In this document: one piece after another, positions 23,828 through 37,508 of the stretch
How positions within the stretch are numbered: the first letter of the stretch is position 1
Layout: each line of letters opens with the position of its first letter
DNA from: Lachnospiraceae bacterium
GTDB taxonomy: Bacteria > Bacillota > Clostridia > Lachnospirales > Lachnospiraceae
Assembly: GCA_017552715.1 (NCBI GenBank)
Contig: JAFZOW010000031.1
Span: forward strand, 1-50,142
DNA: 50,142 nucleotides
Reading direction: 5' to 3'
Translations under genes and position numbers: made by a program
The notes under the pieces: model-generated
Seen by the model: only the letters and a program-made list of their open reading frames with translations
Told to the model about the DNA's origin: nothing
Databases searched by the model: none

Positions 23828-24504
23828 GTGAAGCGGCATCGACGGTGGTGACGGCACGTTTCCGTTTTTCCAGAAAAGGACCGGTGCGCTATCTGGGGCA
23901 TCTGGATATGCTGCGCTATTTTCAGAAGATCGTGTGTAAGAGCGGGATACCCGCCAAGTATTCGGAGGGCTTTCATCCCCACCAGCTCATGAGTTTTGCT
24001 TATCCCCTGGCGGTGGGCATGGAAACGGAAGGGGATTACATGGACCTGGTGCTGAAGGAGCCGGTCCCGGAGGAGGAGCTTGCGAGCGCCATGAATTCCA
24101 TGATGCACGAAGGTGTGGGGGTCAGCCGGGTAAGCCTTCTGAAGGAAGGGGCCGATAATGCCATGGCTTTAGTGGAGGCGGCGGATTACCGCCTGCGTAT
24201 CCGGGCGGACCGTAAGGATGCGGAAGACGCTCTTAAAAAGCTGCTTTCCGGCCAAGAACTGCTGAACGAAAAAGGAAAAGACATACGGCCTGGCATAATG
24301 GATGCGTGCTGCGAGGAGGACGGGATCTTCCTGCGCCTTAAGAGCGGAAGCCGGGGGAATGTACGTCCGGCGGATGTATATCTTCATCTGCGCAGCTTTA
24401 TGCCGGCTTTGCCGGAGATCCCGGATATCCTGCGGCTGGAGATCTACGGAGAGGAAGAGGGAAAGCTCCGGCCCCTGATCGAGATGGGGAGGGTCAATGC
24501 GTAA
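23824..24504 (+). CDS. TIGR03936 / DUF2344 radical SAM-associated protein
   Basis: The 226-residue protein carries the family N-terminus: RFRFSRKGPVRYLGHLDMLR, then SEGFHPHQLMSFAYPLAVGM. It has no cluster-binding cysteines of its own and is thought to work with the upstream radical SAM protein. The frame is open from 23710, but a GAGGAGG ribosome site just before ATG 23824 and the ATGA overlap with the upstream stop fix the start. It overlaps the ribonuclease gene downstream by eight bases, so the three genes are a tight operon. Confidence 0.87.
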   Translation: MSEAASTVVTARFRFSRKGPVRYLGHLDMLRYFQKIVCKSGIPAKYSEGFHPHQLMSFAYPLAVGMETEGDYMDLVLKEPVPEEELASAMNSMMHEGVGVSRVSLLKEGADNAMALVEAADYRLRIRADRKDAEDALKKLLSGQELLNEKGKDIRPGIMDACCEEDGIFLRLKSGSRGNVRPADVYLHLRSFMPALPEIPDILRLEIYGEEEGKLRPLIEMGRVNA

Positions 24505-25516
24505 GGACCGTCAGCTTCTGGCTGAATTTTCTGTCCCGGACCTGCGCATCCTGGCCTGGCGGGGCGAAGATAAGGACGGAAGGGAAAAGCTCTGCATCCT
24601 TTATGTGGCGGGCGGTCGTATCGTCCGTCTGGATACACAGAAGGAGGGAGAACTGTTCCCCGGGGATATCTATATGGCCCGGGTTCTGAAACGGCAGCCG
24701 AATCTGGATGCCGCCTTCGCTGATATAGGAAAGGACAGGAATGTGTTCCTGCCCGGTGATCATAAGACAGGGGAAGAGCTTCCGCTGATGATACGTACCA
24801 CGGCCTACAGGGATAAGCTGGCCAGGGCTACGGACCGGCTGCCGGAGGAGATGAAAGAGGAGATCCTGGCCCGGGCCGCCCACAGTATCAAGGGAAGCCT
24901 TTTGTATGCCGCTGAAAGGCCTTTGGATAAGTCTCTCCGCATCGCGGCAGAGACGGAGGGCGCAAAGTGGCTGACGGAGGATCCCCAGCTTTATGAACGG
25001 GCAGCGAAGCTTGCACCGCAGGCTCCCGCCCGGCTGCATGCGGATGAAAGGATAGGACTGTGCGAACTCTACGGGCTCAGGAGCAAGACGGAGAGAGTTT
25101 TTTCCAACCGGGTTCTTTTAGACAGCGGGGCGGAACTGGTATTTGCGGAAACGGAAGCACTATGTGCCATTGACGTGAATTCCGCCAAAGCCGACAAGGG
25201 CAGAGATAAGGAGGCGGCGGGCCTGCTCATCAACCGGGAAGCGGCAAAAGAGATAGCCTTTCAGCTGAAACTGAGGCGTATCGCCGGGATCGTCCTCATC
25301 GATTTTATCAGCATGAAAAAGAAGGAAAGTGAAACAATATTGCTTGAGGAACTGTCGGAAGCCATGCGGGCAAATGAGGTGGACGGAAGAGTGGAAGATA
25401 TAACAAAATTGGGCATTGTAGAGCTTTCGGTCCGTCGTTTCGGCCCATCCCTATCGGCAGAAAGAAGCTTTGTTAATAGTACTATATTGACGAAGGACGA
25501 GAAAAACACCCGATAA
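24497..25516 (+). CDS. rng: RNase E/G family ribonuclease, short form
   Basis: This is an endoribonuclease of the RNase G type, likely acting in rRNA maturation and mRNA decay. Catalytic aspartates are visible as Asp226 in CAIDVNS and Asp269 in VLIDFISM. An S1-like N-terminal region (GDIYMARVLKRQPNLDAAFADIG, split around a loop) precedes the nuclease core. At 339 residues it is short: it ends soon after the RRFGPSLS segment and lacks the zinc-link cysteines and small domain that make E. coli RNase G about 490 residues long. The stop codon lies in the loop of a strong terminator, so the 3' end of the coding region is part of the hairpin. Confidence 0.88.
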   Translation: MRKDRQLLAEFSVPDLRILAWRGEDKDGREKLCILYVAGGRIVRLDTQKEGELFPGDIYMARVLKRQPNLDAAFADIGKDRNVFLPGDHKTGEELPLMIRTTAYRDKLARATDRLPEEMKEEILARAAHSIKGSLLYAAERPLDKSLRIAAETEGAKWLTEDPQLYERAAKLAPQAPARLHADERIGLCELYGLRSKTERVFSNRVLLDSGAELVFAETEALCAIDVNSAKADKGRDKEAAGLLINREAAKEIAFQLKLRRIAGIVLIDFISMKKKESETILLEELSEAMRANEVDGRVEDITKLGIVELSVRRFGPSLSAERSFVNSTILTKDEKNTR

Positions 25517-25532
25517 AACGCGGGTGTTTTTT
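25504..25532 (+). terminator. Intrinsic terminator containing the rng stop codon
   Basis: AAACACCCG (25504-25512) pairs with CGGGTGTTT (25521-25529) across an eight-base loop, followed by more T. The TAA of rng (25514-25516) sits in the loop. Confidence 0.9.
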
Positions 25533-25584: not shown

Positions 25585-25613
25585 TTGAAAAGGGGGACTT
25601 GAACTGATATATT
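25585..25613 (+). promoter_or_regulatory. Sigma-A type promoter for the SHOCT-repeat gene
   Basis: TTGAAA (25585-25590), a 17-base spacer and TATATT (25608-25613). The start point would be near 25620. The remaining leader holds a small hairpin (AGCGG/CCGCT, loop GGAAAGT, about 25634-25650) just before the ribosome site AAGGAGG. Confidence 0.75.
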
Positions 25614-25666
25614 TAGGGCAACATAAAGTAAGAGCGGGGAAAGTCCGCTACTAAGGAGGAAAAAAG

Positions 25667-27343
25667 ATGGCAGTACAGGTATTTCAGTGTAATTGGGGTT
25701 CCAGTTTAAAGTCGTTTCTGTCTGCAAAGAGCCAGGACAAGCTTTATCTGCAGGTTGATACGACCAAGCCGGATGATGTTAAGATCAAGCTGAAAGGCTA
25801 CATCTGTAACGAAGACGGTAAGAACGAATATATTTCCGAGTCCGATATCGCGGCCAAGGATATCCGCGATGTTCATAAGGGCGAATTCCAGGGCTCCAAT
25901 GCACTGATCATCGTGACACGTCTCCAGACCCTGTACGGCGTTAAGAAGACCCAGAATATCCTCCCGGGTCTTAAAGATATGGATAAGGCTCTTGAGCTGC
26001 TTACGGATGTAGCCACCAAGGCCGGCGGTATCGGTGGAAGTGCTCCCGCTGCCGCAAAGGCTGCTGCTCCCGCTGCTGCTGCAAAGCCCGCTGCTCCCGC
26101 GGCTGCCAAGCCCGCCCCCAAAGCAGCACCTGCACCGGCTCCCGCCCCTGCAGCTCCCGCGCCTGCCCCTGCGCCCGCACCGGCTCCTGCTCCTGCGCCC
26201 GCACCGGCTCCTGCGCCTGCACCGGCTCCCGCCCCTGCACCCGCCCCTGCACCGGTTCCTACTCCTGTAGTTCCCGCATATACTCCTTCCCAGACAGCTG
26301 CCGCCGGAGTGGCTTCGGCTCCCGCAGCTTCCGCACCGGCTCCGTCTGCGCCTCCCAAGAAGAACGAAAGCTACGAAGAGAAGCTTCGTAAGCTGGAGGT
26401 TATCCATGAGAGCGGCATGTGCAGCGATGACGAGTATAAGGAAAAGAAGCTTAAGCTGCTCTGCGACGAGAAGGGCATGGGAGCTTTCTACGAAAAGATC
26501 CAGAAGCTCTTCGTGGTTATGCGTTCCGGCGTGATGAACGAGGCCGAGTTTGCAGCCAACCGCAATCAGATCGTGGATGCCTGCTTCGATCCCAACGTAA
26601 CGGATCTGAACGTATTCCGCGAGAATACTTCCCGCCTGCCCATCATCCTGATGAGCGAGCTGCTGACCGAGGCAGAGTACAATTCCAAGAAGGATGCGCT
26701 GCTGGCCAGTGTTGCCTATAATCCGATGGATGATAATTCCCTCTTTACCTTAAAGCTTCAGAAGCTGCCCATCCTTGTGGATGCCGAGCTGGTTCCGAAG
26801 GAGGAGTTTGAGAGCGATAAGGCCGAGCTGAAGAATATGCTGGATCCGAAGATCAGCGATACCATCGATGCTCTGGATATGAAGCTGGCCCGCTGGCCGG
26901 CGATGGTGGTGGCCGGTGCCGCTACCGATGCGGAGTATAAAGAGAAGCAGGCAAGACTCATCTCCGAAGTGATGACCATGCCTGCAGCAGATGAGAGCTC
27001 CTTCCGCAACAAGGTCCTGCGCGTGATGAAGCTGAAAGAGCGTTCCTGGCTGTCCGAGATGGATTTCCACGGTAAGAAGGTAGAGATCCTGAAAGAGGTT
27101 GAGACCTTCGGTGATGTGGTGCTGCGTATGCGCCTGAACATGATCGCAAGAGACTGCGGCCTGATCAGCACCGAGGACTTCGAGGTGAAGAAGCAGGCTC
27201 TGATCAAGGACATCTTTGCTCCTTACGAGAGCATGGATCAGTTCCAGGAGAAGGTAACACTGCTGAAGAACCTGGCAGGCGGCAACATCATTACGGACGA
27301 TGAGTTCAACTCTTACCGTAACAAGCTGATGAGCGATCTGTAA
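25667..27343 (+). CDS. Uncharacterised protein with eight tandem SHOCT-like repeats behind an Ala-Pro linker
   Basis: I do not recognise this 558-residue protein as a whole. Residues 1-124 form a soluble mixed alpha/beta-looking domain (MAVQVFQCNWGSSLKSFL; SNALIIVTRLQTLYGVKK). Residues 125-230 are an Ala/Pro linker including a long Ala-Pro alternation, likely extended and flexible. From 233 to the end I count eight units of about 41 residues that fit a SHOCT-like pattern: hydrophobic-xxKLxxL, then a turn such as ESGMCSDDEYKEKK or AELVPKEEFESDK, then a short helix. SHOCT modules are small helical elements, often single and at C-termini; a run of eight is unusual. There is no signal peptide or membrane segment. 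It has its own promoter and AAGGAGG site and is flanked by terminator-like hairpins, so it is probably monocistronic. Function unknown; a scaffold is one possibility. Confidence 0.85.
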   Translation: MAVQVFQCNWGSSLKSFLSAKSQDKLYLQVDTTKPDDVKIKLKGYICNEDGKNEYISESDIAAKDIRDVHKGEFQGSNALIIVTRLQTLYGVKKTQNILPGLKDMDKALELLTDVATKAGGIGGSAPAAAKAAAPAAAAKPAAPAAAKPAPKAAPAPAPAPAAPAPAPAPAPAPAPAPAPAPAPAPAPAPAPAPAPVPTPVVPAYTPSQTAAAGVASAPAASAPAPSAPPKKNESYEEKLRKLEVIHESGMCSDDEYKEKKLKLLCDEKGMGAFYEKIQKLFVVMRSGVMNEAEFAANRNQIVDACFDPNVTDLNVFRENTSRLPIILMSELLTEAEYNSKKDALLASVAYNPMDDNSLFTLKLQKLPILVDAELVPKEEFESDKAELKNMLDPKISDTIDALDMKLARWPAMVVAGAATDAEYKEKQARLISEVMTMPAADESSFRNKVLRVMKLKERSWLSEMDFHGKKVEILKEVETFGDVVLRMRLNMIARDCGLISTEDFEVKKQALIKDIFAPYESMDQFQEKVTLLKNLAGGNIITDDEFNSYRNKLMSDL

Positions 27344-27362: not shown

Positions 27363-27429
27363 GGGATGTGAAGGCTTTACATCCCGGAGGATGCGGAGGG
27401 ATCTTAAGCTTCGGGCATAAGATCCCTCC
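27363..27429 (+). terminator. Paired hairpins downstream of the SHOCT-repeat gene
   Basis: A 7-bp hairpin (GGGATGT/ACATCCC, 27363-27385) is followed by a perfect 12-bp hairpin (GGAGGGATCTTA at 27395-27406 with TAAGATCCCTCC at 27418-27429, loop 11). The T-run after it is weak (ATACATTTTAG), so it may protect the 3' end as much as terminate. Confidence 0.6.
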
Positions 27430-27494: not shown

Positions 27495-27567
27495 GCTGGA
27501 ATAGCTCAGTCGGTAGAGCACTTCACTCGTAATGAAGGGGTCGAGAGTTCGAGTCTCTTTTCCAGCT
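27495..27567 (+). tRNA. tRNA-Thr (anticodon CGT)
   Basis: A 73-base cloverleaf can be folded by hand. The acceptor stem is GCTGGAA with TTCCAGC, the D-arm region is TAGCTCAGTCGGTAGAGCA, the anticodon stem CTTCA/TGAAG encloses loop CTCGTAA giving anticodon CGT for the ACG codon, and the T-arm is GAGAG-TTCGAGT-CTCTT. CCA is not encoded. Confidence 0.95.
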
Positions 27568-27577
27568 TGAGATATCA

Positions 27578-27636
27578 GGCCATCAAGCACGTGCGGTGTT
27601 CATGCTTGCATGGGACACCGCACGTATTTGATGGCC
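27578..27636. repeat. Long imperfect hairpin directly after tRNA-Thr
   Basis: GGCCATCAA (27578-27586) pairs with TTGATGGCC (27628-27636), then, after a two-base mismatch on each side, ACGTGCGGTGT pairs with ACACCGCACGT. The 15-base apex contains CATG twice. This is 20 paired bases with a nearly symmetrical arrangement. No T-run follows, so it is not a standard terminator. Confidence 0.85.
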
Positions 27637-27638
27637 GA

Positions 27639-27699
27639 ACAGACATGAGGAAGAAGCAAGTCGCGCTAGAGCGCGACGCCGCGGATTCCGAATGTCTGT
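27639..27699. repeat. Second hairpin with an inner GC-rich stem-loop
   Basis: ACAGACAT (27639-27646) pairs with ATGTCTGT (27692-27699), enclosing an inner stem GTCGCGC-TAGA-GCGCGAC (27660-27677). It lies between the first hairpin and the 70-bp repeats. Confidence 0.75.
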
Positions 27700-27701
27700 G
27701 C

Positions 27702-27905
27702 GGATCGCGAAAGCTGCGAAGCAGCGAAGCGATACGCAGATATCTGTTATGTGGCGATCCGACTGCGTAAAGGATCGCGAAAGCTGCGAAGCAGCGAAGC
27801 GATACGCAGATATCTGTTATGTGGCGATTTGATTGCGTAAAGTATCGCGAAAGCTGCGAAGCAGCGAAGCGATACGCAGATATCGTTTATGTGGCTATAA
27901 CAAAC
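27702..27905. repeat. Three 70-bp tandem direct repeats, each able to fold
   Basis: Units start at 27702, 27772 and 27842, an exact 70-base period; the third is cut short near 27905. Units 1 and 2 differ at only a few positions around the ATCCGACTG/ATTTGATTG segment. Each unit has a nested hairpin: an outer ATCGC/GCGAT stem and an inner GCTGC-GAA-GCAGC stem. Units 1 and 2 also carry the palindrome CAGATATCTG. Adjacent units can pair differently, since the end of unit 1 (GCGATCC) complements the start of unit 2 (GGATCGC). Too regular for a gene and not a CRISPR array. Role unknown. Confidence 0.9.
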
Positions 27906-37139: not shown

Positions 37140-37508
37140 ATGAAAAACTATACCATCACCGTGAACGGCAATGTATATGATGTAACCGTGGAAGAGGGCG
37201 CAGGCAGCGGCGCAGCTGCTGCAGCTCCCAAGGCAGCCCCTAAGGCAGCTCCCAAGGCAGCTCCCGCTGCAAAGAGCAGTTCTGCCGGCGCAGGCAGCAT
37301 CAAGATCGAAGCCGGTGCAGCCGGTAAGGTCTTCAAGATCGAGAAGAATGTTGGCGATTCCGTTAAGAAGGGCGATGCAGTGCTGATCATCGAGGCCATG
37401 AAGATGGAGATCCCTCAGGTGGCTCCCGCCGACGGTAAGGTTGCCAGCATCGATGTGGCTGTGGGCGATGCCTGTGAGGCAGGTCAGGTTCTGGCTACCC
37501 TGAACTGA
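37140..37508 (+). CDS. Biotin carboxyl carrier protein (1.3S-type)
   Basis: The 122-residue protein ends in a biotinyl domain with the canonical EAMKMEI motif; Lys88 is the biotin attachment site. A short Ala/Pro/Lys linker (about residues 25-45) links an N-terminal beta segment to it. It carries the carboxyl group between the two carboxyltransferases and the membrane pump. AGGAGG precedes ATG. Placed between oadG-like and oadB genes, as in decarboxylase operons. Confidence 0.93.
   Translation: MKNYTITVNGNVYDVTVEEGAGSGAAAAAPKAAPKAAPKAAPAAKSSSAGAGSIKIEAGAAGKVFKIEKNVGDSVKKGDAVLIIEAMKMEIPQVAPADGKVASIDVAVGDACEAGQVLATLN

Follow-up and report, generated by a model that had tools for sequence, protein, structure and literature searches.

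A conserved Lachnospiraceae protein with eight tandem SHOCT-like units behind an Ala/Pro-rich linker and an N-terminal domain without a match among named families

The SHOCT domain was defined by Eberhardt et al. (2013), and, as far as the available part of that paper goes, it is widespread in bacteria, mostly occurs in one copy per protein and has no known role (PMC3581485). The same text describes two proteins with three SHOCT copies and one with eight (N. gruberi D2VS68) in Naegleria, and reports that one SHOCT fused to a carrier does not self-assemble (PMC3581485). SHOCT-like domains have also been proposed, in the portion seen of a PSP paper, to recruit proteins to the inner face of the membrane (PMC11237479). 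Searches of the open-licence PubMed Central (PMC) literature listed no title or abstract on a bacterial multi-SHOCT protein. Such a protein, here called octa-SHOCT, is encoded in the 50,142-nucleotide stretch of a Lachnospiraceae bacterium genome analysed here (contig JAFZOW010000031.1; the whole stretch is termed the window). It is real and conserved, and its eight-SHOCT form was previously in print, as far as the literature seen goes, only for Naegleria. An earlier note, made from the letters of the window, had been aware of no named family with such an architecture; this stands for Pfam and NCBIfam, neither of which names a family over the whole protein. The literature does describe a protein with eight SHOCT repeats, that of N. 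gruberi (PMC3581485).

The open reading frame (ORF) at 25667-27343 on the forward strand encodes 558 amino acids (aa; about 60.3 kDa) and lies, as a single copy, in a genome of 3.43 Mb and 134 contigs. The N-terminal domain of about 124 aa is followed by an Ala/Pro-rich linker, which the earlier note had put at about 105 residues and which measures about 107 aa, and by a 329-aa C-terminal array with an acidic predicted isoelectric point (pI 5.0). The parts are given below; each of the eight units draws on a leave-one-out hidden Markov model (HMM) test, an AlphaFold2 model and a unit comparison between proteins.

25667-26038, forward: N-terminal domain, residues 1-124 (no family match; conserved motifs)
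26039-26365, forward: Ala/Pro-rich linker (from composition)
26366-26485, forward: SHOCT-like unit 1, residues 234-273
26486-26608, forward: SHOCT-like unit 2, residues 274-314
26609-26740, forward: SHOCT-like unit 3, residues 315-358 (first helix modelled as two short pieces)
26741-26866, forward: SHOCT-like unit 4, residues 359-400
26867-26998, forward: SHOCT-like unit 5, residues 401-444
26999-27118, forward: SHOCT-like unit 6, residues 445-484 (weakest against shuffles)
27119-27235, forward: SHOCT-like unit 7, residues 485-523 (best Pfam SHOCT stretch)
27236-27340, forward: SHOCT-like unit 8, residues 524-558

The eight tandem units read by the earlier note as SHOCT-like do align with SHOCT and with each other. 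Against Pfam SHOCT (PF09851, cut-off 27 bits), the whole protein scores 29.1 bits and its C-terminal part 32.6 bits; two single stretches of this part individually attain E <= 1, and the aligned C-parts of 13 members all match SHOCT at this same threshold, the best at 1.5e-11. In the leave-one-out test, each unit and 1000 shuffled versions of it were scored with an HMM built from the other seven; the shuffles that scored as well as the real unit numbered, from the first unit to the eighth, 0, 1, 0, 0, 0, 3, 0 and 0. The units are 35-44 aa long and fill residues 234-558. By eye, Gly is found at the turn in four of them (1, 2, 5 and 7), and the residue ahead of the aromatic one is Glu in six and Asp in the remaining two. 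With eight copies, the array departs from the usual SHOCT trait of a single copy near the C-terminus, which is not a strict requirement. Among related loci, L056, L057, L063, L087 and L060 also exceed the SHOCT cut-off; outside the window's genus the whole-protein score passes it in L056, L057 and L087 but not in L089 (13.0 bits) and L091 (24.7 bits), distant members from genus g22. A six-frame search of the window's own genome with Pfam SHOCT returned nothing at E <= 0.001, although hmmscan of the protein matches, which is taken as a limit of the search; surveys may thus miss members too.

The number of units is fixed. Once identical sequences are merged, 30 of the 42 locus proteins of the genus remain, and two short ones were set aside, L013 running off its contig end and the frame of L026 stopping within the linker at the last bases of the stretch. 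In all 28 complete proteins left, the array is 328-330 aa long, and the linker is the sole variable part (89-125 aa, Ala+Pro 57-80%). Outside the genus, eight units recur in six Lachnospiraceae genomes from three genera, namely G204 and G661 (g164), G208 (g168), and G566, G625 and G519 (g22); a unit profile made from the genus sequences alone detects eight domains each in G661, G566, G625 and G519, some of them individually weak. When the units of three genus proteins (L008, L029, L030) and of five from outside (G204, G661, G208, G566, G625) were compared with those of the window, 62 of 64 best fitted the same-numbered unit, the misses being two fifth units, those of G566 and G625. In the five outside proteins the units measure 40/41/44/42/44/40/39-40/34-35 aa. 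Since the eight units are collinear and near-constant in length across genera, the eightfold form probably goes back to before these genera diverged, and the single units have probably become specialised. The earlier note had expected homologues with varying repeat number; instead, all complete proteins compared have eight units, with a different conserved sequence at each position. Among the four single SHOCTs that were compared, the nearest array units are 1, 2 and 8. Regarding selection, one genome pair (the window and L031) gives non-synonymous (dN) and synonymous (dS) rates of 0.145 and 0.887 for the array and of 0.023 and 0.998 for the N-terminal domain; by these rates, purifying selection is acting on both parts, and more strongly on the N-terminal domain.

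A structure prediction of the repeat chain, which the earlier note had suggested as a check, gave eight helix pairs. With 13 sequences, AlphaFold2 modelled the array at a mean predicted local distance difference test (pLDDT) of 89.2 and a predicted template modelling score (pTM) of 0.72, with 17 helices, that is, two per unit in all eight units and one split (unit 3); the segments joining the units are short. As we read it, the hairpins would pack head to tail as a single rigid alpha-solenoid-like rod with position-specific surfaces. Alternatively, the array could be a flexible string of independent SHOCT beads, gaining avidity for a repetitive partner or for the membrane. What is available of two papers lends itself to such a string, as SHOCT is mostly a single small module (PMC3581485) and anchoring of SHOCT-like domains at the inner membrane face has been proposed (PMC11237479). 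The constant number, the near-constant spacing and the unit-specific conservation over four genera, together with the short inter-unit segments and the model scores (pLDDT 89, pTM 0.72), speak against it and make it unlikely.

In our estimate, the chances are about even that octa-SHOCT acts as a scaffold or adaptor in the cytoplasm, where it is probably abundant. The rigid eight-hairpin rod would hold one or more partners on its position-specific surfaces, the N-terminal domain would bind a separate, conserved target, and the flexible Ala/Pro arm would let both work over distance. A cytoplasmic location is suggested by the lack of any signal or membrane segment visible by eye. The earlier note had already spoken of a scaffold or binding array, and its proposal is still an inference: the confident prediction of the array speaks for it, and no binding partner was found.

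Residues 1-124 have no significant match among Pfam, NCBIfam or PHROG families, the best Pfam E among 29 members being 0.013; the earlier note had likewise left this domain unassigned. It is nevertheless recognisable by 32 invariant columns across the 29 members and by the conserved motifs CNWGxSxKS, NE[ED]GKNEY, GEFQG, LYG and an IxPG type. A relationship was found to proteins with one SHOCT. Among the ORFs of 13 loci, the N-profile matches a region of L065 (E 3.3e-5), whose layout runs from a Cys-pair motif through the N-type region and an Ala/Pro linker to a single SHOCT; the profile misses L067 and L068 at E <= 0.1, though both resemble L065 in sequence. Profile alignment by hhalign of the N-domain against L065/L067/L068 gave E 8.4e-6 and a probability of 83%, with reversed controls at E 0.13-0.18. 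A further single-SHOCT protein, L094, aligned with the N-profile at E 1.2e-4 (probability 55%), but its comparison with the L065 set gave no match (E 0.14). The N-terminal domain is thus distantly related, as judged from sequence, to a domain of single-SHOCT proteins of the same layout, which would be the likely ancestral form; octa-SHOCT would then probably have arisen from a one-SHOCT protein of this layout by early amplification to eight. A PH-like fold, guessed from the strand pattern, was dropped, as bPH_3 (PF14470) gave no match to the N-domain in the own genome at E <= 0.001 and hhalign against six bPH_3 sets gave probabilities of 0.1-14.4%. Profile matches of the domain in the PDB were rejected as chance because they were mostly to designed TIM barrels, each of which gave several weak matches. 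The structure model of the domain (pLDDT 40.7) was too poor to serve for a fold comparison.

Regarding distribution, the N-terminal domain was found in 29 of 144 genomes, all from the window's genus (29 of 35 there); the named relatives are Lachnospiraceae, several of them from rumen or omasum. Across the family, the C-profile matched seven of 299 genomes, four with full arrays, and weak matches were seen in G081, in G288 and at two places in G265; one SHOCT each is carried by the proteins of G081, G288 and G265:C1, and G265:C11 (L066) had no matching ORF. The N-profile matched five of the 299, one falsely: G321 was rejected as HisH-like by its sequence, which we take to be that of a HisH-like protein. 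With L065 as query, 13 of 392 genomes of the order responded, five of them octa-SHOCT genomes. Across the phylum, a wider C-profile matched four of 398 genomes, with the full array only in the own genome and partial matches in G1020, G1007 and G998. The unit profile matched 51 of 246 genomes of the order at E <= 0.01; at least two unit matches in one ORF were confined to the own genome, where all eight follow from how the profile was built, and to G519, whose four matches became eight when it was inspected more closely. This survey, which detected only half of the G519 units, is therefore not exhaustive. Four proteins with one SHOCT behind what is presumably an SPFH-like part (L088, L090, L093, L096) were set aside as other families. 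An origin from a mobile element was considered and rejected: tblastn of the array gave no match in phage and plasmid collections, the N and C alignments revealed no relative among viral contigs, and a viral fold library held no match at E <= 0.001. Within the genus, G006, G009, G017 and G021 each carry a pair of genes on a single contig, and G032 has a second copy. A protein of about 133 aa with the N-domain only exists at L061:5981-6379 (G013) and in G033:C211; in G013 its gene is followed by one that is presumably valS-like and, further on, by that for a TPR protein. Duplicate or short-gene sequences were read for G006, G009 and G013.

The signals around the gene are as follows.

25585-25613, forward: sigma-70-type promoter TTGAAA-17-TATATT, extended -10 (TG ahead of the second hexamer; promoter scan)
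25653-25659, forward: Shine-Dalgarno sequence AAGGAGG (read in the sequence; similar in orthologues)
27395-27429, forward: perfect 12-bp inverted repeat past the stop codon (27395-27406 / 27418-27429), possible terminator, no T-run (by eye, then checked)

The gene has its own promoter, as the earlier note had claimed: the element matches 10 of 12 consensus positions, most of the 12 orthologues inspected by eye have a similar one in the corresponding position, and the scanned 2.5 kb hold six promoter-like sites against a mean of 1.9 in shuffles. The terminator-like hairpins that it had placed on the 3' side hold in part. By eye, 11 of the 12 orthologues have a hairpin at the corresponding 3' position, mostly with a T-run, but the inverted repeat of the window has none and is absent from the list of the terminator scan. 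Regarding codon use, called housekeeping-like in the earlier note, the codon adaptation index (CAI) of the whole gene is 0.680, third among the 37 longest non-overlapping ORFs of the window, some of which are probably chance ORFs. By part it is 0.762 for the array, 0.621 for the N-domain and 0.539 for the linker, against 0.715 for a ribosomal/EF-Tu reference set, so that ribosomal-like codon use belongs to the array and not to the whole protein. Together with the conserved promoter, this codon use makes an abundant protein plausible. The highest codon adaptation among window ORFs is found at 37140-37508, whose product, with an Ala/Pro/Lys linker, we take to be a biotin-carboxyl-carrier-like protein.

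Upstream, a row of genes that we take to be hisD, hisB, hisF/hisI-like, radical-SAM and DUF2344-like ends in an rng-like gene (RNase_E_G, PF10150) directly before octa-SHOCT. The rng-like gene adjoins octa-SHOCT in all 12 genome_contigs loci and in G208, which is of another genus; longer loci show more of the row, and L040 and L041 have other DNA between DUF2344 and rng. The genes after octa-SHOCT in G208 look, we presume, like those for ribosomal L21, L27 and obg. This adjacency, and nucleic acid binding as raised for SHOCT in the available text of Eberhardt et al. (PMC3581485), could point to an accessory protein linked to RNase E/G or to RNA. Between the two genes, however, lies a hairpin with a short T-run (25505-25532, by eye and checked), which together with the own promoter makes octa-SHOCT probably its own transcription unit; no rng match was found in 13 kb of G204, rng was not recognised among the listed neighbours of G661, G566 and G625, and the array is acidic. 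Such a link is the least likely of the functions weighed here. The RNase E/G-like gene itself (24497-25516) is short (339 aa) and fast-changing, with 33-53% identity in the genus loci against 44-81% for listed neighbours. Downstream of octa-SHOCT, tRNA-Thr(cgt) at 27495-27567 is followed by Clostridiales-1 RNA at 27570-27745 on the forward strand (Rfam RF01699, 110.1 bits, gathering 48) and by a 70-bp unit repeated 2.8 times in tandem (27702-27895), its first copy overlapping the 3' end of that RNA; partial copies of this unit lie on the own-genome contigs C66 and C93.

In both g164 genomes seen (G204/L056 and G661/L087), octa-SHOCT directly precedes two genes, one for a Ser/Thr kinase with an N-terminal Cys-rich motif and a DUF6273 part (PF00069, E 9.4e-32 for G661) and one for a phosphatase of the calcineurin-like type (PF00149); the G204 pair was identified by tblastn. 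On the other side of octa-SHOCT, both genomes have a divergent T2SSE/MshEN ATPase gene. The array could accordingly serve as an adaptor of Ser/Thr phospho-signalling that holds the zinc-ribbon kinase and its partner phosphatase, the more so as the own genome also has the pair, as does G002, there about 12 kb from octa-SHOCT. In the own genome, however, the pair lies on a different contig (C93), and two genomes of one genus amount to one event. Moreover, the kinase is matched at E <= 1e-211 in 33 of 35 genus genomes (weaker in G011 and G003), four of them without octa-SHOCT, so that its presence does not track that of octa-SHOCT. We regard the g164 neighbourhood as a lead, not as evidence of a link in the window genome, and this adaptor role as unlikely, about on a par with the string of beads. 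Slightly less probable still is a wider proposal, namely that SHOCT units build a separate class of repeat proteins, octa-SHOCT being a new alpha-solenoid and abundant sub-membrane scaffold for this pair or another signalling complex, with the N-terminal domain as recruiting head.

The single-SHOCT relatives L065 and L068 adjoin cotJB/cotJC-type and gerA-type genes (by Pfam for L065, by eye for L068) and are perhaps linked to sporulation. If octa-SHOCT followed them, it could be a structural protein of a cell body, e.g., of a spore coat or a cytoplasmic filament, for which the high codon adaptation of the array would also be suitable. Yet no such neighbours were recognised at the octa-SHOCT loci inspected, and the promoter is of the sigma-70 type, which leaves this role very improbable. 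The protein has a wider use: as it joins eight units, conserved and specialised, in a single chain that is likely abundant, it makes the role of SHOCT testable, a structure of the array would reveal how SHOCT units pack, one bait protein offers eight surfaces, and the single-SHOCT relatives provide a matched comparison.

Among known systems, gas vesicle protein G (PF05120) gives a weak profile match, with 13 of 13 members at E <= 1. Its scores for the window protein are 23.7 and 28.7 bits, and the best in any table seen is 29.4 bits, under the cut-off of 30.6; gas vesicle genes were not searched for. With the alpha-solenoids (HEAT, MIF4G, VPS35 and others), the array shares a predicted row of helix pairs, but no solved structure matches it in sequence at E <= 1, and its structural matches are weak, none of them placing it clearly in a named family such as HEAT, ARM or TPR. 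The proteins L065, L067 and L068 have the same order of parts and a distantly related N-domain, while they differ by a single SHOCT and an extra N-terminal Cys-pair motif. Like N. gruberi D2VS68, octa-SHOCT has eight non-identical SHOCT repeats; D2VS68 is eukaryotic and is compared here by its published description, as far as available. With SHOCT itself (PF09851), the array has in common the two-helix hairpin, a score over the cut-off and a last unit at the C-terminus, but where that family usually shows one copy, each array here carries eight, fixed in number and diverged in sequence.
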